A stretch of DNA of 64,000 nt, from the NCBI RefSeq assembly GCF_002939305.1, contig NZ_MVDI01000006.1, forward strand, positions 1 to 64,000, read 5' to 3'. This document shows, piece by piece, positions 27,299-50,850 of this stretch; positions within the stretch are counted from its first letter, which is position 1; each line of letters begins with the position of its first letter. Origin of the DNA: Chroococcidiopsis sp. TS-821. Its GTDB lineage: Bacteria > Cyanobacteriota > Cyanobacteriia > Cyanobacteriales > Chroococcidiopsidaceae. Position numbers and translations under genes: made by a program. Below the pieces are notes generated by a model that did not search any database, had not been told where the DNA came from, and saw only the letters and a program-made list of their open reading frames with translations.

Positions 27299-27652
27299 TT
27301 ATGCCATTGCAGTTGCCATTTGACGGCAAGACTCTGCACAACGACGACAGGATGCTGCACAGCGACGACAGTGGTTATGGTCATGCTTCTCGCACTCAGC
27401 GGCACAGCGTGCGCTCGCTTCAGCACAGACTTGACACAGCTGAGCGTGCAAATCAGAGTTGCGAGCCATAAACCGAGCGCAAATATCACAAGTATCGGCA
27501 CAATCACGACAGAGCTTAATGTACTGCGCCATCATCTGCACCATGTCACCACTCAAACAAGCATCAGCACAGGTTTCACATTCACGTAAGCAATCCAGAC
27601 AGTTTTGGATACAAGTTTCAAGCAGCGATTGATGGGACTGGGCGGTAGTCAT
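27299..27652 (-). CDS. Cys-rich four-helix-bundle copper storage protein
   Basis: 117 residues with 19 cysteines arranged as CxxC, CxxxC and CxxxxxxC on predicted helices (for example CLDCLRECETCADAC and CRRCAASCRRCAESC). This matches the DUF326/Csp family, whose cysteines line a four-helix bundle that stores many Cu(I) ions. No signal peptide, so it is a cytosolic (Csp3-like) form. A paralogue lies at 31309. A hairpin terminator follows. Confidence 0.9.
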   Translation of the reverse strand: MTTAQSHQSLLETCIQNCLDCLRECETCADACLSGDMVQMMAQYIKLCRDCADTCDICARFMARNSDLHAQLCQVCAEASARCAAECEKHDHNHCRRCAASCRRCAESCRQMATAMA

Positions 27653-31308: not shown

Positions 31309-31638
31309 TTAACGCGATGTGGCAACACTAACCACCTTACGGTACTCCTCAACAGCCGATCGACAAGCCTTGGCACAGCTTTGGCAGTGTTCGTTATCGT
31401 GTTTTTCGCATTCACTGGCGCAGGCTTCGCAGATATCGATACAAGCTCGAACAACCTGAGGGATGAATTGAGATCCGCGACTCATGTAGCCAGCGATCGT
31501 CCAACACATTTGGGCACAATCGCGGCAGAGACGAGCGCATTCTGCCATGCTGCCCATACAGGCATCAGCGCAGTGTTCACACTCGTAAGCACAGTGAATG
31601 GCAGCATCAATACTGGTTTTATACTGCTGATGTGGCAT
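31309..31638 (-). CDS. Second Cys-rich copper storage protein
   Basis: 109 residues with 15 cysteines, in the same helical spacing as the protein at 27299 (CAYECEHCADAC, CRDCAQMC, CIDICEACASEC). CEKHDNEHCQSCAKAC parallels CEKHDHNHCRRCAASC of the other. A cytosolic Csp-like copper store. The conserved ATTTCAT-type repeat lies about 130 bp upstream, in the divergent region shared with the DUF305 gene at 31928. Confidence 0.9.
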   Translation of the reverse strand: MPHQQYKTSIDAAIHCAYECEHCADACMGSMAECARLCRDCAQMCWTIAGYMSRGSQFIPQVVRACIDICEACASECEKHDNEHCQSCAKACRSAVEEYRKVVSVATSR

Positions 31639-31927: not shown

Positions 31928-32601
31928 GTGGTTATGTTGATGAGAAAAACACTCGCCTCATTTCTGTTGGTCGGAATCGTGCCTTTAGTGTCATTTAGCC
32001 TAGCTGCTTGTAGTGGTACAGCCTCCGAACAAGCTGCTGAAAGTCGTCCTAGCAGCTCCACGATGGCTCAGATGGATCATGGCTCCATGATGAACATGGA
32101 TTTGGGACCTGCCGATGAAAACTTTGATCTGCGCTTCATTGATGCCATAATTCTTCATCATCGAGGCGCAATTCAGATGGCGGAAGAAGCTCAGCAAAAA
32201 ACGAGCCGCTCAGAAATTCAGCAGCTTGCCGCAAACATTATTGAATCGCAAAGTCCGAAGAAAATGAGTTGTTACGAGCATGGCGGCAAGCATGGTATCC
32301 GAACGCCAGTGCAGAGCCAGTAATGTATGATGCAGCCAGTCAATCGATGATGCCCATGACCGCATCGCATCAACAGAGCATGGCGATGCAGATGGATCTC
32401 GGAGAAGCGGACGAAGAGTTTGATTTGCGATTTATGAATGCCATGATTCCTCATCATGAGGGGGCAGTTGCAATGGCACAGGAAGCGTTAGAGAAGAGCG
32501 ATCGCCCTGAAGTCAAAGAATTGGCTCAAAGCATCATCGATAGTCAGCAGCAAGAAATTGATCAGATGGTGCAGTGGCGGAAGGACTGGTACGGGCAGTA
32601 A
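31928..32601 (+). pseudogene. Tandem DUF305 lipoprotein, frameshifted
   Basis: Two DUF305 domains in one gene. The first frame (31928-32323) begins with a lipoprotein signal ending FSLAAC, then MNMDLGPADENFDLRFIDAI and ILHHRGAIQMAEEA. Around 32245-32265 reading must shift to the frame at 32269, where LRAWRQAWYP and the second domain (MQMDLGEADEEFDLRF, MIPHHEGAVAMA, QMVQWRKDWYGQ) follow. Each domain should end in RAWRQ/QWRKD-like residues, so the break is at the end of domain 1. GTG 31928 has GGAGG at proper distance. A real mutation or a sequencing error are both possible. The intact protein would be a periplasmic or outer-face metal binder. Confidence 0.8.
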
Positions 32602-33119: not shown

Positions 33120-33932
33120 CCTCATCACCACCCCAACTAGCTGAAACTTTGATGTCTACGACTACCAAGATCGGATGCAGAAACTTCCGAGCTGCTGCAA
33201 CCATGCCGCGATGTAAGAGATAACTGATGTGCTTCGCCTCAGCAACAGGACACTCCAGCAGGATCTCATCATGAACTGTGCAAATCAGCTTTGCTCCTGT
33301 CTCTGCCAGTACTTTGTTAAGTTTCACTAACGCTAACTTTGTGATATCAGCATTCAATCCCTGGACGGGATGGTTCAGCAACTCCGCTAGCCTGGGTTTA
33401 TCCGCCCACCTGCGCCGACGTCCAGCTAGGGTACGGCTCTCCTTTATTCCTCGGAGTAACTACGCTTGATCGTCTCATGCCACTCTGCCACTCCGGCGTA
33501 GGCTTCAAAGAAGCGTTTTCGGAATGCTTTTGCCTGCTCTAGAGACAGAGTGACTCCATACTTTGTCTCAGCATAGCTCTGAAGTTTGGCGGCACCCATG
33601 CCGTAAATCAGCCCAAAATTGATGGCTTTGGCAAGCCGTCGATCTTCCTCGCTCACATCCGCGATCGCTTTCCCCGTCACCAGAGCTGCTGTCAGCCGAT
33701 GCAGATCCTCACCTTTGCGGTATGCTCGTTGCATCCGGGCATCGCCACTTAATCGGGCAACAATTCGCAGCTCAATTTGAGAATAGTCGGCTCGCACTAT
33801 TTGATAACCTGGTGCAGCTACAAAGCAGGTTCGGGCAGCCGCATCACGAGGAATGGTCTGCAAAGGTGGATTGCGACAAGAAAACTGACCTGACCTGGCT
33901 CCAAGCTGGTAGTACGTTGGGTGAATCCTTCC
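33115..33932 (-). pseudogene. Family A DNA polymerase fragment
   Basis: C-terminal polymerase domain only. The frame starts at the edge of an IS element with GRIHPTYYQLGARSGQFS and NPPLQTIPRD, then RADYSQIELRI (motif A), KAINFGLIYGMGA (motif B), then a one-base shift near 33447-33455 to the frame with RTLAGRRRRW, HPVQG and VHDEILLE (motif C). The N-terminal exonuclease and thumb parts are missing because the IS6-like element cuts the gene at the conserved TGRIHPT. The missing part is not on the other side of the IS. Confidence 0.9.
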
Positions 33933-34764
33933 GGCTCTGTTGCAAAAAATGGTAGGCTGAAATGATTTAATGAGAGGAAATCCTTCTGCCTACGGTCATG
34001 AATCCAAAGCAACCGTTCAAGTGGCGGCACTATCAACCCGAAACTATTCTCCTGTACGTTGGTATCTTCAGTATCCGCTTTCATACCGCCACCTGGAACA
34101 AATGATGTAGGAGAGGGGGTTAAGCGTTGACCATTCAAAGGTATACCGATGGGTGCAGACTTATGGCTCCAGGACTCGAAAAACGCACTCGTCCACATCT
34201 GTGTTCTACTAATGATTCGTGGCAAGTGGATGAAACCTACGTTAAGGTCAAAGGTAAGTGGAAATATTTGTATCGGGCAGTCGATTCAGCTGGCAATACA
34301 ATTGATTTTATGTTGAGTGCTAAAAGAGATAGACGTGCAGCAAAACGGTTTTTTCGCAAAGTACTTTCATCGGCTCACACGCACTCGCCACGAGTAATCA
34401 ACGTCGATAAAAATGCAGCTTATCCTATTGCTATTAAAGAGTTGAAAGCAGGAGCGGAGCGAAACTACCTCAAGCTTGTGACTTACGACAAAACAAATAT
34501 CTAAATAATCTAGTTGAACAAGACCATAGGTTTATCAAGAAATTAGTTAATCCAGGTCTTGGCTTCAAATCATTTCACACCGCCAGAAGAACGCTAATTG
34601 GTTACGAAACTATGAACTCTATTAGAAAAGGTCAGCTCGTAGGAGTGTCCAAGGGAGACATTTTAGGTCAAGTGAAATTTATCGCTCAAATCTTTGGAGT
34701 CGCTGTCTAAATCCAACTGCTTCATCCGAAGAGACCGTTCTCAAAAACTTTTTGCAGTCATGAT
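33933..34764 (+). mobile_element. Degenerate IS6-family insertion sequence
   Basis: The left end GGCTCTGTTGCAAAAA matches the typical IS6 terminus. Transposase pieces are read on the + strand: MNPKQPFKWRHYQPETILL (from 33998), then RWYLQYPLSYRHLEQMM, TAG, ERGLSVDHSKVYRWV, then WQVDETYVKVKGKWKYLYRAVD (first DDE Asp), INVDKNAAYP (second) and, after a stop at 34502, DHRFIKKLVNPGLGF (Glu normally at -E-DHR-). At least two frameshifts and two stops. The right end keeps TTTTTGCA (34749-34756) but then diverges, so the boundary is approximate. Confidence 0.85.
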
Positions 34765-35171: not shown

Positions 35172-37979
35172 ATGCTAAGTAATTCAAACTTAAAAATTGT
35201 TAAAGTAAGACGCGATTATAACACGTGGGTTGCAACAGAAACGTTAGAGGACTATGCTCTGCGATTTGCGCCGCAATCGTTCAGAAAGTGGTCGGAGTGC
35301 CTAGTCGCCAACACAGCGATTGGTGGAACATCATTTTTAGCACCGGAGGCAATGGGAGGATCGCTTGTCATTAGCTACGGATTTGCTAATTCTTTCTGGG
35401 CAATTATCGTAGTAGGCATAATTATTTTTCTAACTGGATTGCCAATTACTTATTATGCTGCTAAGCACAACATTGATATCGACTTACTAACACGCGGTGC
35501 AGGTTTTGGCTACATCGGCTCAACAATTACTTCCTTAATCTACGCCTCATTTACATTTATCTTTTTTGCGATAGAAGCCGCTATTATGGCGCAAGCATTA
35601 GAGCTATATTTCCACTTGCCTTTACCTATCGGATATATAGTTTGCTCGGTAATAATCATTCCTTTAGTGTTTTTTGGAGTGACACTCATTAACCAGTTAC
35701 AGCTGTGGAGTCAAGCAATTTGGATTGTGTTGATGGTACTGCCCTACATTTGCGTTCTCTATAAAGAACCTGGCGCGCTCTCAAATTGGATTCACTTTGC
35801 AGGTCAATCTACTAGCGGTGCAGTGTTTGACCCACTTTTGTTTGGAGCAGCTGCTACTGTTTCATTTTCATTAATTGCGCAAATAGGAGAACAGGTAGAT
35901 TACTTAAGATTTTTGCCAGACGAACATCAAACAAACCGAGGAAGATGGTGGTTTTTTATGATGCTGGCAGGACCTGGCTGGATTATTATGGGCGTTGCCA
36001 AACAGCTAGGAGGAGCTTTCTTGGCGTCGTTAGCCATTAGTCACGGAATCAGTCTTGCTAAAGCAAACGAACCCACTCAAATGTATTTGGTAGGGTTCGA
36101 GTACGTCTTCTCAAATCCAGAAATTGCACTATCGTTCGCCGTTTTATTTGTAATCGTCTCTCAAATTAAAATTAACGTCACTAATGCCTATGCAGGCTCT
36201 CTAGCGTGGTCTAACTTTTTTTCGCGATTAACTCATACTCATCCAGGTCGGGTAGTGTGGTTAGTGTTCAACGTAGCAATTGCTTTACTGCTGATGGAAA
36301 TAGGAGTTTTTTCCACGTTAGAAACTGTACTGGGGCTGTATTCTAATATAGCCATTGCTTGGGTTGGAGCTTTAGTTGCCGATTTAGTAATTAACAAACC
36401 TCTTGGCATTAGCCCTTCTCAGGTCGAATTCAAGCGTTCCCATTTGTACAACTTTAATCCAGTAGGATTTGGTTCGATGCTGATTGCCTCACTGGTAGCT
36501 ATGATAGCTTTTCTCGGAGGCTTAGGCACGATTGCCAAAGCTTTTGCACCATTTATTGCTTTAGGATTAGCATTTATACTAGCTCCAGCGATTGCTTTTC
36601 TGACTAAAGGTAAATACTACCTAGCTCGTCAAGATTCCTGTACAAAAATAGATGTTGTCACACTTCGCTGTTGCATTTGCGAACAGGAGTACGCGCGTCA
36701 AGATATGTCATTTTGTCCAGTTTATGATAATTTCATTTGTTCTTTGTGTTGTAGCTTAGATGCTTGCTGCCACGATGCTTGCAAGAAAAGTACTGATAGC
36801 GAAGAGCAAGAACGCAACCTACAATCTGTTCAAATTCCTAAGGCAATCTTTCGGGATAAGATATCTCCTCAATTAGGCATACGGTTAATTAAATTTTTAG
36901 CTATTTTCTTATTTCTTTCCGTATTGTTTGGAATTATTATAGGCATCATGTATTACCAGCAAGTTGCTACTGCACAAAACCTTTCTTCTACTACTGCTCA
37001 AAAAATAGCAGAAATCTTGATGGAGCTATACGCTATTTCGTTAGTATTGATTGGTATGGGTTCGTGGTGGTTAGTGTTAACTCAGGAGAGCAGGCGGCTT
37101 GCGCAAGAAGAACTAGACAAGCGGAATTTACAACTGCAACAAGAAGTAAAAGAGCGGCAACAAGCAGAAGCACAAGTGAAAGAAAAAGCTGCTCAGCTTG
37201 AACAAACACTACACAATTTGAAGCAGGCAGAAGCTCAATTGATCCAAACAGAAAAGATGGCAGCCTTGGGTGGATTGGTTGCTGGTATTGCTCATGAAAT
37301 TAACACGCCTATTGGCATTGGCGTGACAGCAGCTTCACTTTTGATAGAAAAAACATCTGCCTTCTCTCAGCTTTTCCAGAGTGGCAAAATGAAGCGCTCT
37401 GATTTAGAAAAATACCTAAATATGGCTCAACAAACTAGTCAGATGACTTTGAACAATCTCGAACGAGCAACTGAGCTTATTCAAAGTTTTAAGCAAGTGG
37501 CAGTCGATCAGTCAAGTGAATCAAAACGAATATTTAATCTCAGCAGCTATTTAGAAGAAATTTTGTTACAGCTTAGTCCTAAGCTGAAAACTACAAAACA
37601 TATTATAGAGGTAAAAGGAGACGCTTCTCTGAACATAAATAGCTATCCAGGTGCTCTTTCTCAGATTATTACAAACTTAATTATGAATTCACTGATTCAC
37701 GCGTATGAATCTAGCGAACAAGGGCATATTGTATTGAGTTTTAAACAGGTAGAGGAGCGAATAGTTTTTGAGTACTCTGACGACGGTAAAGGAATAGCTC
37801 CAGAAAATATTAATAAAATTTTCGAACCATTTTTTACAACCAAACGAGGTCAAGGAGGAAGTGGTCTGGGTTTACATATTGTTTACAATTTAGTAACTCA
37901 AAAACTTAATGGAAGGATTTACTGTGAAAGTAAACCTGACACAGGAACAAAGTTTATTATCGAAATTGTTAATACTTGA
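35172..37979 (+). CDS. NCS1 permease-histidine kinase fusion sensor
   Basis: 935 residues in four parts. Residues 25-485 are an NCS1-type (nucleobase/allantoin/hydantoin) permease with about 12 membrane helices, starting TLEDYALRFAPQSFRKWSE. Residues 490-537 hold eleven cysteines (CCICEQEY, SFCPVYDNFICSLCC, ACCHDAC), a probable zinc or redox module. Two further helices (about 574-595 and 618-637) and a coiled coil (640-695) lead to a kinase: GGLVAGIAHEINTPIG with phospho-His 708, then the ATPase N, G1 and G2 boxes (NLIMNSLIHA, DDGKGIA, GSGLGLHIV). It parallels transporter-kinases such as CbrA. It is 30 bp upstream of a receiver-MarR gene, its likely partner, and next to amide/urea uptake genes. 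Confidence 0.93.
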   Translation: MLSNSNLKIVKVRRDYNTWVATETLEDYALRFAPQSFRKWSECLVANTAIGGTSFLAPEAMGGSLVISYGFANSFWAIIVVGIIIFLTGLPITYYAAKHNIDIDLLTRGAGFGYIGSTITSLIYASFTFIFFAIEAAIMAQALELYFHLPLPIGYIVCSVIIIPLVFFGVTLINQLQLWSQAIWIVLMVLPYICVLYKEPGALSNWIHFAGQSTSGAVFDPLLFGAAATVSFSLIAQIGEQVDYLRFLPDEHQTNRGRWWFFMMLAGPGWIIMGVAKQLGGAFLASLAISHGISLAKANEPTQMYLVGFEYVFSNPEIALSFAVLFVIVSQIKINVTNAYAGSLAWSNFFSRLTHTHPGRVVWLVFNVAIALLLMEIGVFSTLETVLGLYSNIAIAWVGALVADLVINKPLGISPSQVEFKRSHLYNFNPVGFGSMLIASLVAMIAFLGGLGTIAKAFAPFIALGLAFILAPAIAFLTKGKYYLARQDSCTKIDVVTLRCCICEQEYARQDMSFCPVYDNFICSLCCSLDACCHDACKKSTDSEEQERNLQSVQIPKAIFRDKISPQLGIRLIKFLAIFLFLSVLFGIIIGIMYYQQVATAQNLSSTTAQKIAEILMELYAISLVLIGMGSWWLVLTQESRRLAQEELDKRNLQLQQEVKERQQAEAQVKEKAAQLEQTLHNLKQAEAQLIQTEKMAALGGLVAGIAHEINTPIGIGVTAASLLIEKTSAFSQLFQSGKMKRSDLEKYLNMAQQTSQMTLNNLERATELIQSFKQVAVDQSSESKRIFNLSSYLEEILLQLSPKLKTTKHIIEVKGDASLNINSYPGALSQIITNLIMNSLIHAYESSEQGHIVLSFKQVEERIVFEYSDDGKGIAPENINKIFEPFFTTKRGQGGSGLGLHIVYNLVTQKLNGRIYCESKPDTGTKFIIEIVNT

Positions 37980-38009
37980 TATGACTGTCCTGATTAGGAA
38001 GTTTCTGTA

Positions 38010-39179
38010 ATGAATAACAGACAAGAATTTTTTCACAACCATCAAAGTTACGAATGTAATTCCTTCCAGGAAGAGGAGGAAATCCTTTTTGCTGATGAAA
38101 CGGAACCTGCTCAAACAGAGAGTGGCTGGAAAATTTTAATAGTAGACGATGATGTTGAAGTACACAATGTTACGAAACTAGCCCTGAGTGACTTTACCTT
38201 TGAGAATAAAAGTTTAGTATTTTTGAGTGCTTACTCTGCCCAAGAAGCAAAGCAATTAATTCAGTTGCATTCTGACATTGCTATTATTTTCCTTGATGTA
38301 GTAATGGAAACGGAAGATGCAGGTTTACAGTTGGTCAAGTACATCAGGGAGGAGTTAAAAAATCAACTAGTTAGAATTATTTTAAGAACAGGTCAACCAG
38401 GAAGATGTCCAGAGAATATTGTTGCAACTAATTATGAAATTGATGACTACAAAACCAAAACTGAACTAACTGCTCAAAAACTATTTTTCACAGTAGTCAC
38501 TGCTTTAAGAGGATTTTCTACAATTATAAAGCTTTTAGAAGCAAGCAAAGTTGTTGAATTAAAAGATGGGCAGCACGAACACTTTGACGAGATGTTAGCT
38601 GTTGAAAGGATCGCGCAAAATAAGGAAATACAAAATCAAAACTTATTGCGAAATTTAAAGGCTCAACAAATAGAAACTTTGGGAAATTTGATATCAGAGG
38701 TTACGCATGAAGTTATTAATTCTAGCTATACAAATACGCTTTATACAATGTCACTTATTACTTGGATAGCAAGAATGATATTGCGAACAACAGACGAGCA
38801 TTTTGCAAAGTTGGGTATATCGCAAAGCAAGTTAGCAGTATTAATATACTTGAGTAGCGAACCTCAGTTATATGCAAGTCCGTCTTCTTTAGCAAAGCAT
38901 TGTGGTGTTTCGCGTGCTGCCATGACTGGACTTGTAGATGGACTGGAAGAAGAGGGATATGTTGAACGCTACAGTCATCCTTCAGATCGTCGTTCTTTAA
39001 TGATTAAACTGACGCAAAAAGGACAACATTTTATAGATAGTATTGCTTCGCAAGATCAATACCGTATATCTGAATTAATGAGCGTACTAAGTGAAATAGA
39101 ACGTCAGAAATTAATTGAATTAACAATGAAGGTTATTAAAATTTTTGAGGAACAAGCGACAAGTTCATTAGAGCAATGA
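38010..39179 (+). CDS. Receiver-MarR fusion response regulator
   Basis: 389 residues. The receiver has ILIVDDDVEVHNVTKLAL and FLDVVMETEDAG, in which Asp 96 is the probable phospho-site; LRTGQPGRCPENIV is typical of the receiver type found in RpfG-like proteins. A helical linker (about 165-230) leads to a winged helix of the MarR type: SPSSLAKHCGVSRAAMTGLVDGLEEEGYVERY and the wing SDRRSLMIKLT. Most MarR proteins bind small ligands directly, so control by phosphorylation is unusual. The kinase gene is immediately upstream. The GTTAAC repeats at 39424-39467 are good candidates for its binding site. Confidence 0.92.
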   Translation: MNNRQEFFHNHQSYECNSFQEEEEILFADETEPAQTESGWKILIVDDDVEVHNVTKLALSDFTFENKSLVFLSAYSAQEAKQLIQLHSDIAIIFLDVVMETEDAGLQLVKYIREELKNQLVRIILRTGQPGRCPENIVATNYEIDDYKTKTELTAQKLFFTVVTALRGFSTIIKLLEASKVVELKDGQHEHFDEMLAVERIAQNKEIQNQNLLRNLKAQQIETLGNLISEVTHEVINSSYTNTLYTMSLITWIARMILRTTDEHFAKLGISQSKLAVLIYLSSEPQLYASPSSLAKHCGVSRAAMTGLVDGLEEEGYVERYSHPSDRRSLMIKLTQKGQHFIDSIASQDQYRISELMSVLSEIERQKLIELTMKVIKIFEEQATSSLEQ

Positions 39180-39423: not shown

Positions 39424-39467
39424 GTTAACAAAAAAATAGTTAACCAGTTAACAATTCAGTAGTTAAG
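39424..39467 (+). promoter_or_regulatory. GTTAAC repeat array
   Basis: GTTAAC at 39424-39429, 39439-39444 and 39447-39452, and GTTAAG at 39462-39467: spacings of 15, 8 and 15 bp. This is two tandem copies of GTTAAC-N9-GTTAA(C/G). Each hexamer is itself a palindrome. The array overlaps the NtcA-type box and lies just upstream of the -10 box, ideal for an activator or repressor of the uptake operon. Confidence 0.75.
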
Positions 39468-39500
39468 TATACAAATTGCATTAGTCTCATTCTCTATGAT
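39459..39500 (+). promoter_or_regulatory. NtcA-type nitrogen-control promoter
   Basis: GTA-GTTAAGTA-TAC at 39459-39472 is an exact GTA-N8-TAC NtcA box. It is followed after 22 bp by TATGAT (39495-39500), matching the class II NtcA-activated layout. The uptake/amidase/urease genes begin 234 bp downstream. NtcA activates such genes when 2-oxoglutarate is high, i.e. under nitrogen shortage. Confidence 0.85.
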
Positions 39501-39733
39501 TCACAGATAACGACAGTTCAATGGCACTCTAAAATCTTTGGTTTAACCGTTGCGTGTCTTCTAGCTGCATGTAGGGCAATAGTCTGGCTTGCATGCTGCA
39601 CTACGTCGATTGCGTTTTGCACGTAGTTGCATTGGCGGCTTACTCGGTTGCGCGTAATGGAGATTGCGCGTACCTTGTGTGCCCACATTTTTCGTATGTC
39701 AAGGCTGCTCATGTTTTGATTGGGGTTCAACTG

Positions 39734-41017
39734 ATGAAGAGGCGGACTTTTATCCAAACTGCGATCGCATCTGCTGCAACTACGGCAGCTGTTTCGTGTG
39801 CTAACCGAACGACGCAAGTAACAAATACGTCAACACAGGCAGCAGCGAGTGGAGGCGATATCAAAGTTGGAGTTCTTTTCTCCTTAACCGGCGGTCTTGC
39901 AATCATTGAAAAGTCTTTACATGATGCCACTTTGATGGCAATTGATGAAATTAATACGGCAGGAGGAGTTGGTGGTGCTAAGCTCGTACCGATTGTAGAG
40001 GATGCAGCCTCAGATCCTAGAACGTATCAGGAGAAAGCTCGCAAGCTACTTATTAGCGATAATGTAACAACTGTTTTTGGCTGTTATACATCAGCCAGTC
40101 GCAAAGCAGTTCTTCCAATTTTTCAGCAACGTAAAGGATTGCTCTATTATCCAACTTACTACGAGGGTAACGAGTGTAGTGGTAATTGCATTTATACTGG
40201 GGCAGTTCCCAACCAGCAGCAAAGTAACTTCGTTCCTTGGATTGTAGAAAACCTCAATGCAAAAAGGTTCTTTATTGTAGGGTCTAACTATGTTTATCCG
40301 AGAGAAATGTCCAAAGTTTGCCAAATTCTTCTTAAAGAGAATGGCGGACAAGTAGTAGCAGATGAGTATCTACCACTAGGTCATACTGAATGGGCACCTC
40401 TAGTCAATCGGATTAGAGAGTTAAAGCCTGACGTTGTTTACTCAAATGTTGTAGGAGATTCCGTCATTGCTTTCTATCGTGAATTTAGAAACCAAGGTCT
40501 AACTGCTGAGTCTCTTCCTATTTGTGCAACTGTCACTAGCGAGATAGAAGTTGCTGCTATGGGTGCTGAGTTTGCAGCAGGACACTATACTTCGTTTCCT
40601 TACTTCCAAGCAATTCAATCGCCAACCAATACAGAGTGGGTTAAGCGCGTTAAGGAGCGATTCGGTCAAAATGCTGTGACGCACCATGCAATGGAGTGTT
40701 CTTATTGGCAAGTACATATATTCAAGCAAGCGGCTGAGCAAGCAGGCGATCTAGATCCGATGAGAATTCGCGAGGCTACGATTGGACAAACGTACGATGC
40801 ACCTGTCGGCAGAGTAGTTATTGACGATAATGCTCATGCTTTCCTTACGCCTCGAATTGCCCAAGCTCAATCTGATGGGCAATTTAGGGTTGTTGATGAA
40901 TATCCTGAACCGCTTGAACCGCTTCCTTATTCTGCATATGGCGAAACCTCTCAGAGTAGATTCTGCCTGCGAGATGGTTTAGACCAAGAAAAAGCCAAAG
41001 CCGTCACCGGAACGTGA
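39734..41017 (+). CDS. urtA: ABC transporter substrate-binding lipoprotein, UrtA-like
   Basis: 427 residues from ATG 39734. MKRRTFIQTAIASAATTAAV followed by SC is a twin-arginine-like signal ending in a lipobox. The mature part is a periplasmic binding protein of the amide/urea class (UrtA, FmdD, AmiC): VGVLFSLTGGLAIIEKSL, YYPTYYEGNECSGNCIYTGA, and VYSNVVGDSVIAFYREF. The ORF is open upstream to 39593, but that extension has no signal character. First gene of the transporter set, driven by the NtcA-type promoter. The neighbouring amidase suggests that short amides may be imported as well as urea. Confidence 0.9.
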   Translation: MKRRTFIQTAIASAATTAAVSCANRTTQVTNTSTQAAASGGDIKVGVLFSLTGGLAIIEKSLHDATLMAIDEINTAGGVGGAKLVPIVEDAASDPRTYQEKARKLLISDNVTTVFGCYTSASRKAVLPIFQQRKGLLYYPTYYEGNECSGNCIYTGAVPNQQQSNFVPWIVENLNAKRFFIVGSNYVYPREMSKVCQILLKENGGQVVADEYLPLGHTEWAPLVNRIRELKPDVVYSNVVGDSVIAFYREFRNQGLTAESLPICATVTSEIEVAAMGAEFAAGHYTSFPYFQAIQSPTNTEWVKRVKERFGQNAVTHHAMECSYWQVHIFKQAAEQAGDLDPMRIREATIGQTYDAPVGRVVIDDNAHAFLTPRIAQAQSDGQFRVVDEYPEPLEPLPYSAYGETSQSRFCLRDGLDQEKAKAVTGT

Positions 41018-41077
41018 ACATCTTAATTTGTGCTTTAAGAGAATTCAAGCTACTACAAATTGAGCTAAAAGAAAGAT

Positions 41078-41932
41078 ATGCTAGGAAGCTTTTTAACAGG
41101 TCTGAGTATTGCTTCAATTTTGTTACTAGTTGCATTGGGTTTGGTAATCGTCTACGGCAGCATGGGCGTAATCAACATGGCTCATGGAGAGCTAATTATG
41201 TTGGGTGCATATACTACTGTAGTTGCTCAGCAGTACGGGATTTCTTTCTTACTTTGTCTGCCTATAGCATTTTTCGTTGCCGGACTTATTGGCTTTTTTA
41301 TCGAGCGAATAGTTGTCCGACACCTATACGGGCGTCTACTAGATACACTACTAGCAACGTGGGGAGTTGGTATTGTTATTCAACAGCTAGTTCGATTAAC
41401 CTTCGGACCTGGGCTGCAAAACATTTCTGTGCCCTCATATCTCTCAGGAAACTTAATTTTAGGAGGCGTTAATCTTCAGCCTTATCGCTTAGCTATTTTT
41501 GCTGTAGCGATCGCATCACTTGGTGCCGTTACTTTCATTTTGTATAAAACTGATTTTGGTACCTGTTTGAGGGCAGTGACGCAAAATCCACAAATTTCAG
41601 CTTGCAATGGCATTAACGTCGATCAGATAAAGGGACTTACCTTTGCACTTGGTTCTGGCTTAGCTGGTATAGCTGGAGTAATGGTAGGGGGATTGCAAAG
41701 CGTAAGTCCAACAATGGGAACATCTTACGTTGTTGATTCATTTATTGTAGTAGTTGTTGGTGGTGTAAGTTCTCTAATAGGTGCAGTTGCCAGTTCTGCG
41801 TTACTTGGGCAGGTGAATGCATTCGTAGCTTGGGCATCCAACGATGTCATTGCCAAAGCAGTATTATTTGCAATAGCAATTGTTATCATTCGGTTTCGCC
41901 CCCAAGGTCTTTTTACAGTCAAATCACGCTAA
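41078..41932 (+). CDS. urtB: Branched-chain-type ABC permease, UrtB-like
   Basis: 284 residues, about eight membrane helices, of the LivH class. LGLVIVYGSMGVINMAHGEL is the family signature, and GGVSSLIGAV and VIIRFRPQGLFTVK are the conserved end. Pairs with the next gene to form the channel through which the solute bound by UrtA passes. Confidence 0.92.
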   Translation: MLGSFLTGLSIASILLLVALGLVIVYGSMGVINMAHGELIMLGAYTTVVAQQYGISFLLCLPIAFFVAGLIGFFIERIVVRHLYGRLLDTLLATWGVGIVIQQLVRLTFGPGLQNISVPSYLSGNLILGGVNLQPYRLAIFAVAIASLGAVTFILYKTDFGTCLRAVTQNPQISACNGINVDQIKGLTFALGSGLAGIAGVMVGGLQSVSPTMGTSYVVDSFIVVVVGGVSSLIGAVASSALLGQVNAFVAWASNDVIAKAVLFAIAIVIIRFRPQGLFTVKSR

Positions 41933-41980
41933 TTAAGTGGTTGAAATTAGGTCTCAACCGCCAAATTGAGGTTGTCAAAA

Positions 41981-43138
41981 ATGCTTAAATCAGCCGTACG
42001 CAAGATTCCTGCACCTTCCTATCTTATTTTTTTTGCAATTATCTTACTTCTTCCTCTGTTTGTTACTGATGCATTTTGGTTGAACAGACTTTCGCAGTAT
42101 CTTACCTATGGTATGCTGGCTGCTGCTCTATCCCTCTGCTGGGGCTACTGTGGCATTCTCAGCTTAGGTCATGCAGCCTTCTTTGGACTAGGTGCTTACT
42201 GCATGGCAATGTCACTAAAGCTACTTAGTCCAACTAGTTTAGGACAAGGTACAGATTTTCCACTACCAGACTTTATGGTGTGGAACACTCTTGCAGGACA
42301 AGAACTTACCTTACCACTTCTTTGGGTTCCCTTTCAAAATCAATGGTTTGGCTTGTTTGCTGCCTTGATAGTTCCCCTTACACTAGCAATCCTATTAGGA
42401 CTGTTCATCTTTTATGGCAACATCTCTGGAGTTTTTGTCTCAATAGTCACGCTGTCTTTGGTTGTCATTCTCAACCTGATTATTGTCGATCAGCAACCTC
42501 TTACTAATGGATTTAATGGAATTACCGACCTTGCTTACTTTACGGTTGGCAATTTTGAGTTCGATCCCTATAGCTGGACTACATACTTACTAACAGCTGT
42601 TTCTTTAATTGCAATGATGCTGCTACTAAAAGCAGTAGTAGAGACGAAAACAGGTTTATTATTTAGAGCAATCCAAGCTGACGAAACCCGCGTTAAATAT
42701 TTCGGGTACAACATTGCGAACTACAAGTTGTTTGCATTCAGCCTTTCTGCACTAGTAGCTGGACTTGCAGGTGCTCTATTTACAATCTCGTCTCAATTCG
42801 CATCTCCAGCACTACTCGAAATTGGATTTAGTATCAGTATTATTATTTGGACGGCTGTTGGCGGACGCGCTTCTTTACTAGGGTCGGCAATTGGCGCGAT
42901 TGCTATTAATTTACTTCAGAGCTTGCTGAGTGAGAGCGAAACCTTGATTAATGTTTGGTTACTCATTATTGGTTCTGTATTTATTTTGGTGATTCTAGTT
43001 TTACCTAACGGATTAACAGATATTATCCCAACTTTATCTGCAAGGTTTTTCCCAAAATCTTATTCCACAATGCCATCTTCTCCAGAAGGTAAAGAGGTGT
43101 CTGAAGCGCCGCTTGTGAGTATGCGAACCAAGGATTGA
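41981..43138 (+). CDS. urtC: Branched-chain-type ABC permease, UrtC-like
   Basis: 385 residues from ATG 41981 (TTGAGG lies 9 bases before; an in-frame TTG at 41966 is a poorer start). LivM class: LSLCWGYCGILSLGHAAFFG and ALVAGLAGALFTISSQF are the conserved blocks, with about ten helices. Second half of the membrane channel. Confidence 0.92.
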   Translation: MLKSAVRKIPAPSYLIFFAIILLLPLFVTDAFWLNRLSQYLTYGMLAAALSLCWGYCGILSLGHAAFFGLGAYCMAMSLKLLSPTSLGQGTDFPLPDFMVWNTLAGQELTLPLLWVPFQNQWFGLFAALIVPLTLAILLGLFIFYGNISGVFVSIVTLSLVVILNLIIVDQQPLTNGFNGITDLAYFTVGNFEFDPYSWTTYLLTAVSLIAMMLLLKAVVETKTGLLFRAIQADETRVKYFGYNIANYKLFAFSLSALVAGLAGALFTISSQFASPALLEIGFSISIIIWTAVGGRASLLGSAIGAIAINLLQSLLSESETLINVWLLIIGSVFILVILVLPNGLTDIIPTLSARFFPKSYSTMPSSPEGKEVSEAPLVSMRTKD

Positions 43139-43193
43139 TACGCAATGGCTAACTTATCAATTGGTGACATTTGTATAAGCAGGGAGAAGTTTA

Positions 43194-43997
43194 ATGGTTA
43201 AAGCTTCGCGCAGGCTTAATACCGTGTCTGATAGTACTTTAGCTCAAGACACAATACTTGAGATCCAAGATTTAGAGGTTTCATTTAGCGGGTTTAAAGC
43301 TGTTAGTGGACTTAATCTAACAGTTATACAAGGAGAAGTCCGCGTGTTAATCGGTGCTAATGGTGCTGGCAAGACAACTACAATGGATTTAATATCCGGC
43401 AAAACAAAGGCAACAGACGGTAGGATTCTTTTTAAGGGAAAAGATATTACGAACTGGGAACCACACCAAATTTCTCGAATTGGAGTTGGTAGGAAGTTTC
43501 AAATCCCTAGTGTTTTTAAAGATCTCACTGTTTTTGAAAATATGCAAGTTGCCTTGTGTGCAACACCTTCTGTCTTGCGAAACTTACAATGGCGTATCGG
43601 AAACAAGCACCACAACCGAATTGAAAGAATTCTACATCATATTGGACTGAACGATTACAAGTATCAAACTGCAAAATACTTGTCTCACGGGCAAACACAA
43701 TGGTTAGAAATTGGCATGGTACTGGCACAAGATCCTGAATTAGTTCTACTAGATGAGCCAACGGCTGGGATGACAACTCAAGAAACGCGGAAAACAGCCG
43801 AGATTATTAATAATCTTAAAGGTCAGCACACAATTCTTGTCGTTGAGCATGACATGACATTTGTACGAGATATTTGTGAAACCATTACAGTTATGCATCA
43901 GGGAAAAAAGTTATCCGAAGGGACAATCAGCGAAATCGAAAACGATCCTTCTGTGATTGAAGCTTACTTAGGTAGTGGAGGAATATCCCATGCTTAA
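43194..43997 (+). CDS. urtD: ABC transporter ATP-binding protein, UrtD-like
   Basis: 267 residues of the LivG class. Walker A GANGAGKTTTMD, signature LSHGQTQWLEIG (the LSGGQ loop in its LSHGQ form), Walker B LVLLDEPTAGM and the switch His in VVEHDMTFV. LSHGQTQWLEI is typical for UrtD-like proteins. GGGAGAAGTTTA precedes the ATG. It overlaps the next gene by 8 bp. Confidence 0.93.
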   Translation: MVKASRRLNTVSDSTLAQDTILEIQDLEVSFSGFKAVSGLNLTVIQGEVRVLIGANGAGKTTTMDLISGKTKATDGRILFKGKDITNWEPHQISRIGVGRKFQIPSVFKDLTVFENMQVALCATPSVLRNLQWRIGNKHHNRIERILHHIGLNDYKYQTAKYLSHGQTQWLEIGMVLAQDPELVLLDEPTAGMTTQETRKTAEIINNLKGQHTILVVEHDMTFVRDICETITVMHQGKKLSEGTISEIENDPSVIEAYLGSGGISHA

Positions 43998-44685
43998 GTT
44001 AACAGAAGTTGATTCTTTTTACAGTGATAGTCATATTCTTCATAGTGTTTCTATGAATATTCAAGAAGGAAGCTTTACAACTATTCTTGGACGCAACGGA
44101 ATGGGGAAGACGACGTTATTAAAAACTATTATGGGGCTTACCGACAAGATTCGTGGAAGGATAGAAATAGGTAATAAAGTATTAACGGCGCTACCAACTC
44201 ATTTACGAGCAAAATCAGGTATTAGTTATGTTCCTCAGGGTAGAGAAATTATTAATAATTTTACAATCCGTGAAAATATACTAATGGGATGTTATGCTAG
44301 ACAAGACGGAAAAAAAATAATTCCAGAAATTGTTTTAGAGCTATTTCCGTATTTACGAGAGCATCTTAATCGACGTGCTGGTTTATTGTCTGGTGGTCAG
44401 CAACAGCAGTTAGCAGTTGCCAGAGCGTTAGCTTCAAAGCCAAAAGTTTTACTTCTTGACGAACCTACTGAAGGAATTCAACCTAATCTTGTTGAGCTAA
44501 TTGAGCATACTTTAATACGGCTTAATAAGGAATTTGGCATCACTATAGTTCTTGTTGAGCAAAATATTAACTTTGCTCGTAGAGCATCAGATCAGTTTGT
44601 CATGATGAACAATGGTTCTATAGCAATAGATGGAGCTATCAGTGAGTTAAATGATGATGTTGTCCACAAATACATGACAGTGTAA
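43990..44685 (+). CDS. urtE: ABC transporter ATP-binding protein, UrtE-like
   Basis: 231 residues of the LivF class. Walker A GRNGMGKTTLLK, signature LLSGGQQQQLAVARAL, Walker B VLLLDEPTEGIQPN, and VEQNINFA switch. ATG 43990 is chosen since GTGGAGGAAT lies 8 bases before it; an in-frame GTG at 43975 coincides with that ribosome site. Last gene of the uptake set; the amidase follows 115 bp later. Confidence 0.93.
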   Translation: MLKLTEVDSFYSDSHILHSVSMNIQEGSFTTILGRNGMGKTTLLKTIMGLTDKIRGRIEIGNKVLTALPTHLRAKSGISYVPQGREIINNFTIRENILMGCYARQDGKKIIPEIVLELFPYLREHLNRRAGLLSGGQQQQLAVARALASKPKVLLLDEPTEGIQPNLVELIEHTLIRLNKEFGITIVLVEQNINFARRASDQFVMMNNGSIAIDGAISELNDDVVHKYMTV

Positions 44686-44800
44686 ATCATCATCTGTTAG
44701 GTAAGATGCTTAAGTCTTTTTGAACGAGACTTAAATGTTATTTCTCGGACTAATTTTTGCGTTCAATTTAAAAATTTCAATGTAATTTTTGGAGGATAAA

Positions 44801-45889
44801 ATGGCTTATCACGGTGATATTTCTTCAAGCGAGGATGCAGTTGGAGTTGCTGTAGTCAATTACAAGATGCCACGTCTTCATACGAGAGAAGAGGTGATCG
44901 AAAATTGTAAGAACATTTCAACAATGATTGATGGTCTTAAGCTTGGTTTGCCAGGTATGGATCTAGTCATTTTTCCTGAATACTCGACTCACGGTATCAT
45001 GTATGACTTCAAAGAAATGATGGAGACGGCATCGAGTATTCCTGGATCTGAAACAGATATTTTTGCTGAAGCTTGCGTACGTAACAAGGTTTGGGGTGTA
45101 TTTTCAATTACTGGAGAAAAACACGAGGATCATCCTGATAAAGTTCCTTACAACACGTTGATCTTAATAAATGACAAGGGCGAGATTGTACAAAAGTACC
45201 GTAAAATCATGCCTTGGTGTCCTATTGAAGGTTGGTATCCTGGTGGATGTACTTATGTTTCAGAAGGTCCCAAAGGACTTAAGATGAGCTTGATCATCTG
45301 CGATGATGGTAACTATCCTGAGATTTGGCGCGATTGCGCGATGAAGGGCGCTGAATTAATCGTACGCTGCCAAGGTTATATGTATCCTGCTAAAGAGCAG
45401 CAAGTTATGGTATCTAAGGCAATGGCGTGGATGAATAATACTTACGTAGCTGTTGCTAATGCCTCTGGTTTTGATGGAGTGTATAGCTACTTCGGACATT
45501 CGGCAGTTATTGGATTTGATGGTCGTACTCTCGGCGAATGTGGTGAAGAAGAAAATGGGGTGCAATATGCAGCACTCTCGAAGTTTGCGATTCGCGACTT
45601 CCGCAAGAATGCTCAGTCTCAAAACCATCTGTTCAAGCTGTTGCATCGCGGCTACACGGGCACTATTAACTCTGGCGACGGCTCTGATGGAATGCTTGAG
45701 TGCCCGTACGAGTTCTATCGAGATTGGGTACTCAATCCGCGCAAGGCAAAAGAAAATGTAGAAAATATTACCCGTCCAACTGTAGGAACGCCTGAGTGTC
45801 CTATTGAAGGACTGCCAACGCAAAAAATTAGTAGTACTCCTGTAGAAAAACCTCAAACATCTCCAGTGTCAGTCCCAGCTAAATCTTAG
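44801..45889 (+). CDS. amiE: Aliphatic amidase
   Basis: 362 residues of the nitrilase superfamily that hydrolyse short amides (acetamide, propionamide) to acid and ammonium. Glu, Lys, Cys triad: [29 protein letters not shown] and [15 protein letters not shown]. From memory the sequence matches Pseudomonas AmiE for most of its length ([20 protein letters not shown]) and is less like formamidase AmiF. TTGGAGGATAAA precedes ATG 44801. A Ser/Pro-rich tail of about 25 residues is extra. Its place between an uptake system and urease indicates breakdown of imported amides for nitrogen. A hairpin follows. Confidence 0.95.
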
Positions 45890-46228: not shown

Positions 46229-46266
46229 CGTAAAAGAGCTACTTGCTAGTTAGCAGGATGCGATCT

Positions 46267-46593
46267 ATGTATTTAACACCAAGAGAACTCGAACGTTTGA
46301 CTATTTTCACTGCTGCTGAAATTGCGCGGCGGCGGAAGGAGCGAGGAATTAAGCTAAATGTTCCAGAAGCGATCGCTTACATTACAGACTACATCGTAGA
46401 AGGAGCAAGAGAAGATAAATCTGTTGCACAACTGATGTCAGAAGGAGCTAGTTTGCTAAGTGTAGATGACGTTTTGCCTGGTGCCGCAGAGTTGATTCCA
46501 TTAATTCAAGTAGAAGCTCATTTTTTAGACGGGACAAAATTAGTCAGCATTCACAATCCAATTCGCCCTGTAGAGGTACGCGAGGTACATTGA
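46267..46593 (+). CDS. ureA: Urease gamma subunit
   Basis: 108 residues. [38 protein letters not shown] and [20 protein letters not shown] are the conserved blocks. ATG 46267 (MYLTPRE) matches the usual N-terminus; AGCAGG lies 9 bases before it. Upstream in-frame codons from 46243 have no counterpart. Its stop overlaps the ureB start (TGATG). Confidence 0.95.
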
Positions 46594-46979
46594 TGGTAGA
46601 AAACAAACAACTAATTCCTGGTGAAGTTCTCTGCGCATCCGAACCTATTTCTCTCAACGCAGGTCGCATTGCCAAAACAATTACGGTGACTAACATTGGC
46701 GATCGCCCTATCCAAGTTGGCTCTCACTATCATTTTTTTGAAGTCAACCGAGCGTTGAAATTTGACCGTGCAGAAGCTCTTGGCTTTCGATTAGATATTC
46801 CAGCAGGTACTGCTGTTCGCTTTGAACCAGGAGATTCTAAGTCAATTACTTTGGTTGCAATCGGTGGCAGTCGGTTCATTCGCGGACTCAATAGTTTAGT
46901 CAATGGCGCGTTGGATGCTACTGAAACGACAAACAAGGCATTAGAGCAATTACAAGTAATGGGGTTTGGCGACAAGTAG
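46593..46979 (+). CDS. ureB: Urease beta subunit
   Basis: 128 residues. [38 protein letters not shown] and [13 protein letters not shown] are diagnostic. The start ATG overlaps the ureA stop by one base. Fourteen bases separate its stop region from ureC. A subunit of the nickel-dependent urease holoenzyme. Confidence 0.95.
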
Positions 46980-46992
46980 TAGGAGTGCGTGT

Positions 46993-48699
46993 ATGGAAAT
47001 CAGTCGCGAACGCTATGCAGAATTGTTTGGACCTACTGTAGGCGATCGCATTCGCTTAGGGGATACTTCTTTAGTTGTAGAAGTAGAACGAGATACTACT
47101 GTTTATGGCGATGAGTGCGTTTTTGGGGGAGGTAAAACACTACGAGATGGTCTAGGAATGGCAGCCGGTGTAACAGCTAGCGAAGGCGCATTAGACCTTG
47201 TAGTTACAAATGTAGTATTGATCGATCCTGTTCAAGGAATTGTTAAAACGGATGTTGGTATCAAAAACGGCAAGATTGCTGGTATTGGTAAAGCAGGAAA
47301 TCCAAGCATCATGGACGGCGTGTGTCCAGATTTAATTGTCAGTGCTAATACGGATGTACGCGCTGGAGAAGGTTTAATTGCTACGCCAGGTGGAATTGAT
47401 TGTCACGTTCATTTTGACAGTGCTGGACTATGTGCAGAAGCACTTTCAAGTGGTGTAACAACAATGTTGGGTGGTGGGTTAGGTCCAGTAACGGTTGGAA
47501 TTTGCTCTAGTGGCGCTCGCAATCTGGGAATTATGCTGCAAGCTGCTGAAGGATTTCCAGTTAACTTTGGTTTTTTGGGGAAAGGCAGTTCAAGTCTTCC
47601 TGAAAGCTTAGTTGAGCAAATTGAAAACGGAGCTTACGGACTGAAAATTCACGAAGACTGGGGTGCAATGCCAGCAGTGATTGATACCTGCTTGTCAGTG
47701 GCAGACAATTATGATTTCCAAGTACAACTGCACACAGATACGCTCAACGAGTCAGGATACGTAGAAGATACTTTGGCAGCGATTGCTAAACGTACAATCC
47801 ATATGTATCATGCTGAGGGTGCAGGAGGTGGACACGCACCTGACATAATCAAAGTAGCTGGTTACTCCCACTGTCTTCCATCTTCTACTAATCCAACTAA
47901 TCCCTATACTGTTAATACATTTGACGAACATTTGGATATGGTGATGGTTTGTCATCACTTAAATCCTAAAGTGCCAGAAGATGTAGCATTTGCTGAATCG
48001 CGAATTCGGGCTGAAACGATTGCTGCTGAGGATATTTTGCACGATATAGGTGCAATTAGTATGCTAGGTTCAGACAGCCAAGGTATGGGTCGGATTGGAG
48101 AAGTGATTTGCCGCACTTGGCAGCTTGCTTCCAAAATGAAGGATCAGAGAGGCATACTAGCAGAAGATAATGAGCGCAACGATAATCATAGAATTCTTCG
48201 ATACTTAGCTAAATACACGATTAATGTTGCTAAAACTTGCGGTATTGATAGCTATGTCGGTTCTATCGAGCCTGGCAAGATAGCCGACCTTGTTCTTTGG
48301 AAACCTGGTTTTTTTGGCATTAAGCCTGAAACAGTTATTAAAGGCGGTTTTATTGCTTGGGCGGCAATGGGCGAATCAAATGCATCTCTAATGACTTGCG
48401 AGCCTATCTTGTACCGTCCCCAGTGGAGTAGCTTTGGTACGGCGTGTCAAGCAACTTCTGTCGGATTCGTAACTCAAGCGGCGCTAGAAAAAAACTTACC
48501 TGAGCGATTAGGTTTGCGAAAGCAACTTCTTCCTGTACGCGGAACGCGATCGCTTTCTAAAGCGGATATGGTACGCAATACTGCTTGTCCGGAAATTGAA
48601 GTCGACCCTGATACATTTCAAGTCAGAGTTAACGGCGAGTTGGCAACTTGCGAACCTGTTTCCAAAGTTCCGCTAGGTCGGTTATACATTTTTAGATAG
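46993..48699 (+). CDS. ureC: Urease alpha (catalytic) subunit
   Basis: 568 residues, normal length. Nickel ligands are visible: [10 protein letters not shown] (two His), [10 protein letters not shown] (the carbamylated Lys), [23 protein letters not shown], and [13 protein letters not shown] (Asp). VCHHLNP carries the flap Cys and catalytic His. ATG 46993 is preceded by AGGAGTGCGTGT and matches the family start [15 protein letters not shown]; a longer open frame to 46966 is within ureB. Hydrolyses urea to ammonium and carbonate in the cytoplasm. Confidence 0.97.
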
Positions 48700-48700
48700 C

Positions 48701-49354
48701 ATGGAAAGCATGATGAACCACACAGCAGCACGAGTTGGAGTGGGAGGTCCAGTTGGTAGTGGCAAAACAGCATTACTGGAATGTTTAATACCAGTACTTA
48801 TGCAACGTGGAATTGAAGTTGCCGTAGTAACAAATGATCTCTTAACTCAAGAAGATGCCAAGCGACTCAAGCATAAAGGATTTCTACCAGCAGAACGCAT
48901 TATTGGAGTAGAAACAGGTAGTTGTCCTCATACAGCAATTCGCGAAGATCCAACGATGAATTTGCTTGCCGTTAGCGACTTAGAGCGCTTATATCCTCAG
49001 TTAGATTTAGTATTTATAGAAAGCGGTGGCGATAATCTTGCATCGACTTTCAGTTATGACTTAGTAGATGCATACATTTTTGTGATCGATGTAGGTGCAG
49101 GAGATGATATTCCTCGAAAAAATGGTCCAGGCTTTATCCAAGCCGACTTGGCTGTGATTAATAAAATTGATATCGCACCTTACGTTGGAGCAGATTTAAA
49201 TTTAATTCGCAAAGAAGCAGGGGAACGTCGCAGCCAAAACCGGATTGCTTACACCAACTGTAAAACTGGTGAAGGATTGGGCGATGTTATTGATTTTATT
49301 GAAGAAACGGTTCTATTTCGCCAGTCATGTAAGAACATATCGGTAGAAGTTTGA
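48701..49354 (+). CDS. ureG: Urease accessory GTPase
   Basis: 217 residues. GVGGPVGSGKTALLE is the P-loop, VVTNDLLTQEDA and GVETGSCPHTAIREDPTMN (the CPH nickel site) are conserved, FIESGGDNLASTFS is Walker B-like and INKIDIAPYVGADL the guanine motif. ATGs at 48701, 48713 and 48716 are all possible starts. Powers nickel delivery to apo-urease. Here it follows ureC directly, not ureF as in many operons. Confidence 0.95.
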   Translation: MESMMNHTAARVGVGGPVGSGKTALLECLIPVLMQRGIEVAVVTNDLLTQEDAKRLKHKGFLPAERIIGVETGSCPHTAIREDPTMNLLAVSDLERLYPQLDLVFIESGGDNLASTFSYDLVDAYIFVIDVGAGDDIPRKNGPGFIQADLAVINKIDIAPYVGADLNLIRKEAGERRSQNRIAYTNCKTGEGLGDVIDFIEETVLFRQSCKNISVEV

Positions 49355-49355
49355 T

Positions 49356-50270
49356 ATGGTTGCAAGCAATTCTGGCACACAACTTGTAGCTAGCGGTTCA
49401 GCTTCTTTTGGATTAAAACATCCTCAAGTACAGGTGGAGAAATATAATCTTTACTTGCGTTTGTGCTGCGATCGCGACCAACAAACGTTTGTTGCGCATC
49501 AGTATGCGACGTATCCGTTCCGCCTTTCACGTACATTTCGTCTCGATAAATCAAGTTCCAGTCGAGCTTATTTGTATTTGATGAATGTATCCCCAGGGTT
49601 ACTTGCTGGCGATAGATTGCACATTGGCATACAAGTGGAGGCAAATGCTCGTGCTTACTTGACGGATCAATCAGCAACAAAAGTACATAGTATGCCAGTA
49701 TTTGGCTCGATTGCTAGAACAAGTTATAACATTAAAGTCGGTGCAAAAGCTATTCTAGAGTTAGTTCCAGAACCTTTAATTCTCTATAAAGAAGCAAGTT
49801 TTGAACAGTTTACAGAAGTATCACTTCATTCTACAAGCCAGTTGTTTTTGAGCGAAATTATTGTTCCTGGAAGACTTGCGAGAGCAGAATACTATAAATT
49901 CAATTGTTATCTTAGTCGGTTGCGAGTTTTATCAATAGAAGGAGAGTTAATTTTTGGCGATGCTATGCGGTTAAATGGAAATTTAAATACTTTTAAAGAT
50001 AGTTTTTTCTTTTTAAAGTTTCCTGTTATTGCAAATGTTGTAGTTGTACTGCCAAATACTGAGTTAAGTAGTTTGGTGAAAAAAATAGATGTTCTACAAG
50101 AGTACTCTTCAAAATTAATTTTAGGATATTCTCATCTACCGAACTGTAACGGTTTATTAGTCCGAATTATGGGAATTAATATTAGTAGTGTCAAAATATG
50201 CATTCAGCACATACTTAGCTACGTACGTCAAATTAGCAATCAACCACATTTACCAGAAGTTCCTAAATGA
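49356..50270 (+). CDS. ureD: Urease accessory protein UreD
   Basis: 304 residues. YPFRLSRTFRLD, YLYLMNVSPGLLAGDRLHI and ATKVHSMP (normally TKvh/y) are the UreD/UreH signature; GRLARAEYYKF is conserved further on. Binds apo-urease and with UreF and UreG forms the activation complex. Starts one base after the ureG stop codon region and overlaps ureE by 4 bp. Confidence 0.9.
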   Translation: MVASNSGTQLVASGSASFGLKHPQVQVEKYNLYLRLCCDRDQQTFVAHQYATYPFRLSRTFRLDKSSSSRAYLYLMNVSPGLLAGDRLHIGIQVEANARAYLTDQSATKVHSMPVFGSIARTSYNIKVGAKAILELVPEPLILYKEASFEQFTEVSLHSTSQLFLSEIIVPGRLARAEYYKFNCYLSRLRVLSIEGELIFGDAMRLNGNLNTFKDSFFFLKFPVIANVVVVLPNTELSSLVKKIDVLQEYSSKLILGYSHLPNCNGLLVRIMGINISSVKICIQHILSYVRQISNQPHLPEVPK

Positions 50271-50794: not shown

Positions 50795-50850
50795 GAGTAA
50801 AGCGATTTCATCCATGAATAGTTTTACTTTTTCAATCAATAATATTTGCT

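Follow-up and report, generated by a model that had tools for sequence, protein, structure and literature searches.

An NCS1-fold permease joined to a histidine kinase: a candidate amide/urea transceptor in cyanobacteria and Pseudomonadota

The closest described counterparts of the sensor considered here are histidine kinases that carry a transporter as their membrane part. In CbrA, CrbS and RpuS, an SLC5 domain is joined to the kinase through a STAC domain (PMC7096432, PMC9100948, PMC13022988), and CrbS and RpuS are paired with LuxR-family regulators (PMC9100948). CbrA transports histidine (PMC7096432). In Ks-Amt5, an ammonium transporter is fused to a kinase; transport has been lost, a binding site has been gained, and the protein responds to ammonium (PMC5764959). 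As to target genes, the fmdCABDEF cluster of Methylophilus methylotrophus is induced by formamide and urea (PMC10781810), and no sensor for it is described in the open-access papers that were found.

The present analysis concerns a window of 64,000 nucleotides (positions 1 to 64,000 of contig NZ_MVDI01000006.1) from the 5.23 Mb genome of the cyanobacterium Chroococcidiopsis sp. TS-821. In this window, an open reading frame (ORF) at 35172-37979 encodes a sensor of 935 amino acids, one half membrane protein and the other histidine kinase, and the next gene encodes a receiver (REC) joined to a MarR winged helix; both genes, the promoter elements and the urt, amiE and ure genes behind them lie on the forward strand. 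The sensor belongs to a real, conserved and undescribed transporter-kinase family that is tied to the use of urea and amides. The reading preferred here, to which we assign a probability of about 0.7, is that sensor and regulator form an amide/urea transceptor two-component system, to which NtcA adds nitrogen control. The sensor is very probably a switch that induces the neighbouring genes for uptake and breakdown of urea and small amides when substrate is present, the sign of regulation presumably being positive. A preliminary description of this DNA, made from the sequence alone, had taken the role of the pair in amide and urea use to be undescribed. No open-access paper was found that treats an NCS1 kinase or a urt or fmd sensor, a scope that makes such an absence weak.

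Architecture of the sensor

The reading frame of the sensor is confirmed, and its domains follow one another in the order NCS1-fold permease, cysteine module, two helices, coiled coil and histidine kinase; the fusion set out in the preliminary description thus holds in coordinates, frames and domains. The permease domain covers residues ~24-486 (35241-36629). Between the cysteine module and the kinase lie two predicted transmembrane helices (residues 564-642; 36861-37097), placed at residues 566-599 and 606-642 in the AlphaFold model; in the sequence, hydrophobic segments run over residues ~564-640. The coiled coil and the kinase core occupy 37098-37979, with Pfam matches to HisKA at residues 699-758 and to HATPase_c at residues 828-932. 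Both the histidine and the HATPase motifs of a two-component kinase are present, and the phosphoacceptor, His708 (codon 37293-37295), lies within a GIAHEINTP motif.

What kind of permease is this? Pfam, NCBIfam and PDB sequence searches did not recognize it as NCS1, and among the 15 members of set A1 there was no match to the PF02133 model even at an E value of 10, nor any Pfam match to a sodium:solute symporter (SSF, SLC5) domain. When the profile built from 46 relatives was compared by hhalign with one built from nine genuine PF02133 permeases, the result was 95.7% and an E value of 8.8e-9 over 373 columns. A bridging homologue, the standalone permease of locus L174, is 30% identical to the sensor permease (E 1e-34) and itself matches PF02133 (E 3.5e-9). 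Searching structures with the AlphaFold model of the sensor (predicted local distance difference test, pLDDT, 80.7) returned CodB first (Z 33.4) and Mhp1 at Z 25-29, with SLC5 structures ranking below those of NCS1. A structural control is needed here, since every LeuT-fold family reaches scores above 20; the best non-NCS1 row reached 23.6, and the margin over the other LeuT-fold families is clear for CodB only. On profile comparison, bridging homologue and predicted structure together, the membrane half is thus an NCS1-fold permease, nearest CodB and Mhp1, and the NCS1 label originally given to it was correct. A late permease helix carries a conserved S-Q-x-K-I-N segment (residues 330-335; ~36159-36176), of which K333 is invariant and replaced by R in distant standalone relatives; this segment may have a bearing on ion coupling.

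Linkage to urea and amide genes

Which solute would such a permease report? A scan of genome contigs yielded at least 580 relatives of the sensor, which is present in 13 of 386 cyanobacterial genomes; among 398 sampled genomes of Pseudomonadota, 56 had a match, ~52 of them strong (~13%). A sample of 40 of the matched Pseudomonadota loci, of up to 20 kb each, was used to assess linkage. Within ~10 kb, genes of the urt, fmd, ami or ure groups were present at 39 of these, and the one remaining locus lies on a contig of 4.8 kb. The same held at 63 of the 69 named Pseudomonadota loci, and the chance of a single-copy locus being placed within 10 kb is well under 1% in such genomes. The link with urt, ami and ure genes, for which the preliminary description had proposed a survey, has strong support in these Pseudomonadota counts. 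Since some of these loci carry urease only and others urt-fmd-ami only, their common theme is urea/amide chemistry. Typically, sensor and regulator genes share a strand, and urtABCDE-fmdA-fmdB(-amiE) runs divergently from them. In most loci the regulator gene either overlaps that of the kinase, usually by 7-50 nt, or directly adjoins it. The Pseudomonadota version is a hybrid kinase with a receiver of its own, and its partner is a receiver joined to a LuxR-type helix-turn-helix. Genes for nucleobases, hydantoin or allantoin did not recur near the sensor loci examined, and such ligands, which had been put forward alongside amides, were dropped; the amide side of that proposal has the support of the urt, fmd, ami and ure linkage.

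Relatives that lack the kinase are also informative. In one cyanobacterium (L112), the permease and cysteine module stand alone, immediately 5' of fmdA and fmdB, and a second (L113) has the same kinase-free form before fmdA-fmdB, with a broken frame. Stenomitos frigidus (L026/L173, L172) has both a kinase-fused copy and, on another contig, a kinase-free one. The distant standalone permease of L174 (6784-11981) is found in a row with CN hydrolases, an UrtA/AmiC-like receptor and AmiR, forming a compact amide operon. Because the kinase-free copies adjoin fmdA-fmdB and the L174 permease adjoins amide genes, the neighbourhoods point to short-chain amides as likely substrates of this permease type. 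A tree of the relatives did not resolve whether the kinase-free permeases are ancestral or derived. Two cyanobacterial loci have neighbours of another kind: what comes after the sensor gene in Okeania (L030, 10402-11821) is an isochorismatase-type hydrolase gene and a cupin-like ORF, and in L108 (6387-7670) it is an ORF for an NCS1-like permease. These two sensors may have a different ligand.

The same relatives bear on whether the sensor transports what it senses. There is somewhat less than an even chance that its permease domain is a pure receptor, transport having been lost as in Ks-Amt5, or that the kinase reads flux or an internal state, the targets being the same in either case. Ks-Amt5 did trade transport for a binding site (PMC5764959), and the adjoining urtABCDE genes make uptake through the sensor unnecessary; on the other hand, the kinase-free copies beside formamidase suggest a transport-competent scaffold, and CbrA retains transport (PMC7096432). 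By analogy, CbrA and Ks-Amt5 are precedents for sensing by a transporter-kinase, and either mode would fit the window sensor within the preferred reading of an amide/urea transceptor.

Regulator, promoter and operon

The regulator gene (38010-39179) encodes a protein of 389 amino acids that, from Pfam matches and alignments with L024 and L026, comprises a receiver at residues 42-151, a linker that appears to derive from an H-box region, and a MarR domain at residues 270-329. Both domains score above their cut-offs (PF00072, 32.2 bits against 30.2; PF01047, 48.4 bits against 24.6), and the receiver has the complete pocket of a response regulator (Asp46/47, Asp96, Thr127 and Lys148), which bears out the receiver-MarR protein, with its Asp96, as first described. 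This partner is nevertheless not the rule for the family. The full receiver-MarR protein was found in the window genome only among 292 cyanobacterial genomes, with a second example, 60% identical, in L024; a MarR partner as a general feature was therefore rejected, and it is rather a rare cyanobacterial replacement, confined to two genomes, for the LuxR-type regulator found in Pseudomonadota.

Where did the REC-MarR protein come from? Among relatives of the window receiver, the fusion partner is a kinase or a GGDEF domain, and in Stenomitos (L026), a REC-kinase gene rather than a REC-MarR gene comes after that of the sensor. The H-box region of this REC-kinase can be aligned with the linker of the window regulator, and the REC-MarR therefore probably arose from a REC-kinase by replacement of the kinase part with a MarR domain; the H-box histidine has been kept in the window and lost in L024. 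The sensor kinase cores of the window, L024 and L026 stand at 70-76% among themselves and at ~30% against other cyanobacteria. It is unlikely that the REC-MarR is not the target of the kinase, with the kinase addressing some other regulator and MarR repressing the operon on its own in response to a small molecule. The wiring is indeed variable, given the REC-kinase behind the same kinase type in L026, and an adjoining regulator is absent from most cyanobacterial relatives; but the gap between sensor and regulator genes is 30 nt in the window and ~11 nt in L024, the phosphorylation residues of the receiver are retained, and this type of kinase core travels together with a REC partner in the window, L024 and L026.

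The two-component reading finds a possible site of action downstream of the regulator gene. A palindrome, ATAGTTAA-N4-TTAACNAT (39436-39455), occurs once in the whole genome, both in the window genome and in that of L024, and in each case its place is behind the regulator gene and ahead of the operon that comes next, that of urtA in the window and that of amiE in L024; this shared location makes it a candidate operator for the REC-MarR. A predicted NtcA-type promoter begins 3 and 5 nt further on in the two genomes. In the window (39459-39500), this promoter consists of GTAN8TAC at 39459-39472, a 22-nt spacer and TATGAT at 39495-39500, and it has the same layout (GTAN8TAC, ~22-nt spacer, TAN3T) in L024 at 9143. 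The chance of finding the NtcA-type part alone is P ~0.0045 and ~0.0025 per intergenic region, and the flanks between the boxes are poorly conserved. These predicted sites would be consistent with an operon controlled both by nitrogen status and by its substrate. L024 has, in addition, a perfect 24-bp palindrome, CAAATGTATCTTAAGATACATTTG, at 4971-4994 between urtA and the sensor, which contains an NtcA-type box facing urtA.

The operon behind this promoter begins with a urtABCDE-type ATP-binding cassette transporter (39593-44685), in which UrtB to UrtE score above their cut-offs and UrtA below its own. It continues with an aliphatic amidase gene, amiE (44789-45889; NCBIfam equivalog PRK13286, E 3.5e-212), and, from domain matches, a second urease set comprising ureABC, ureG, ureD, ureE and ureF (46243-51552). 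Urease and urtA are each present twice in the genome: the canonical urtA and the other ureC are ~27 kb apart on contig C1 of this genome (G000, ~1340200-1368600), and the window copies, including its UrtA paralogue, are the divergent second set. The system thus looks like an accessory amide/urea module. Downstream, at 53600-55127, a gene for a ParA-like ATPase is followed by a ParB-looking ORF without a Pfam match, and because of this ParA-like gene and the contig size of 270 kb, the island is possibly located on a plasmid. Directly upstream of the sensor gene lies a piece of an IS240-type transposase (34127-34504), and before it, on the opposite strand, a truncated DNA polymerase A fragment (33444-33863). 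Still further upstream, small cysteine-rich proteins (27299-27652, 31309-31638 and 31928-32601, one of them matching DUF326) are encoded near DUF305 proteins, a group that we take to resemble a copper-handling cluster.

The cysteine module, the proposed mechanism and known systems

The stretch between permease and kinase, where CbrA, CrbS and RpuS have a STAC domain, consists of the cysteine module (residues 487-545; 36630-36806) and the two helices. The preliminary description had seen a hinge of eleven cysteines, which are indeed present at residues 490-537; the conserved unit, however, is made up of eight only, invariant in 93 of 93 distinct sequences with the fixed spacing C-x2-C-x11-C-x7-C-x2-CC-x5-C-x3-C, and the other three are not conserved. 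Modelled alone, the module has a compact predicted fold (pLDDT 75), with weak resemblance to RING, PHD and FYVE zinc domains (best Foldseek E 0.31) and weak Prok-RING_1 matches in 2 of 55 sequences (best E 0.0063). Matches of PDB profiles to C2H2 fingers were discarded, as these repeat single CxxC knuckles in tandem. Twelve permease helices precede the module, which is therefore expected to be cytosolic, and since the L112 protein ends right after it with no kinase following, it is part of the permease and not of the kinase. A redox hinge was set aside, given the conservation of only eight of the eleven cysteines, their fixed spacing and the expected cytosolic side; the likeliest reading is a structural two-zinc domain with a RING/PHD-like fold. 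Least likely of the alternatives to the transceptor, and improbable, is that the module is itself the sensor, of a metal (nickel or zinc) or of redox state for the needs of urease, with the permease as a modulating platform: urease needs nickel and the eight cysteines are strictly conserved, but they are conserved equally near formamidase- or amidase-only loci and in kinase-free permeases, and the fixed spacing, compact predicted fold and RING/PHD likeness better fit structural zinc.

How might the transceptor work? The NCS1-fold domain would bind, and perhaps transport, an amide or urea solute, and its conformational change would pass through the cytoplasmic eight-cysteine module, presumably held by structural zinc, to the two-helix hairpin and the coiled coil. 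The signal from the coiled coil would alter autophosphorylation at His708, and the phosphoryl group would be transferred to Asp96 of the REC-MarR partner. As a dimer, the MarR domain may then bind the palindrome just upstream of the NtcA box at the urt-ami-ure promoter, and the operon would be switched on only with both nitrogen limitation, through NtcA, and substrate, through the REC-MarR.

Several points weigh against this scheme. In cyanobacteria, linkage to urea and amide genes is seen in 2 of 23 kinase-fused loci (the window and L024 only), so that the ligand may be another one in this phylum, or control may be exerted from a distant locus. The amide/urea role first proposed for the pair has its support in the Pseudomonadota linkage and in the kinase-free copies adjoining formamidase, and does not extend to the neighbourhoods of most cyanobacterial sensors. 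Linkage cannot tell urea from formamide or acetamide. The candidate operator came from a post hoc comparison of two loci. Finally, L-histidine had no effect on the kinase activity of CbrA in vitro (PMC7096432), so that fusion of a permease to a kinase is no guarantee of control by ligand.

For most operons of uptake and hydrolysis of urea and short-chain amides, it is unknown how the external inducer is sensed. A widespread permease-kinase that is locked to these genes is a direct candidate for this sensor, and one that occurs in culturable Bradyrhizobium, Herbaspirillum and Methyloversatilis, with the kinase-free sister permeases as natural controls for transport versus sensing. A bolder and decidedly tentative view would make these NCS1 proteins the third class of transporter-kinases: transceptors that carry amides or urea as well as report them, and that are coupled to their kinases by a two-zinc module unique to them. 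Present in roughly an eighth of the Pseudomonadota, they would supply the inducer sensor that is missing for urt, fmd and urease operons, and in two cyanobacteria they would feed a REC-MarR-NtcA AND gate.

The sensor represents a new family inside a known kind, that of transporter-kinase fusions such as CbrA and Ks-Amt5, and its NCS1 domain is one more fold among the few transporters known to be fused to kinases. With CbrA, CrbS and RpuS it shares a LeuT-fold transporter, a cytoplasmic and often hybrid kinase, and nutrient control of nearby genes, the last by prediction, and its Pseudomonadota version has a LuxR-type partner, as CrbS and RpuS do; it differs from them in being NCS1 rather than SLC5, in having the eight-cysteine module and two helices at the position that STAC and PAS hold in them, and in its linkage to urea/amide genes. 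In Ks-Amt5, too, a transporter domain has become a sensor of nitrogen and is fused to a kinase (PMC5764959); its Amt/Rh fold, however, is unrelated to NCS1, it lacks a cysteine module, and its partner is unknown. Another kinase of the literature, GrtK (PMC12918730), is PilS-like and has no relation to the sensor. The fold of CodB and Mhp1 (PF02133) extends over sensor residues 24-480; unlike these, the sensor falls below Pfam detection in sequence, conserves the S-Q-x-K-I-N segment, and carries a kinase. In AmiC/AmiR, an amidase operon is also under amide-responsive control, and the L174 permease stands in just such an operon; there, however, no kinase takes part, and the components are a soluble binding protein (AmiC) and an antiterminator (AmiR). 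The fmdCABDEF cluster of M. methylotrophus, with its porin, formamidase, FmdB and amide/urea ABC transporter, resembles the loci in which relatives of the sensor are found.

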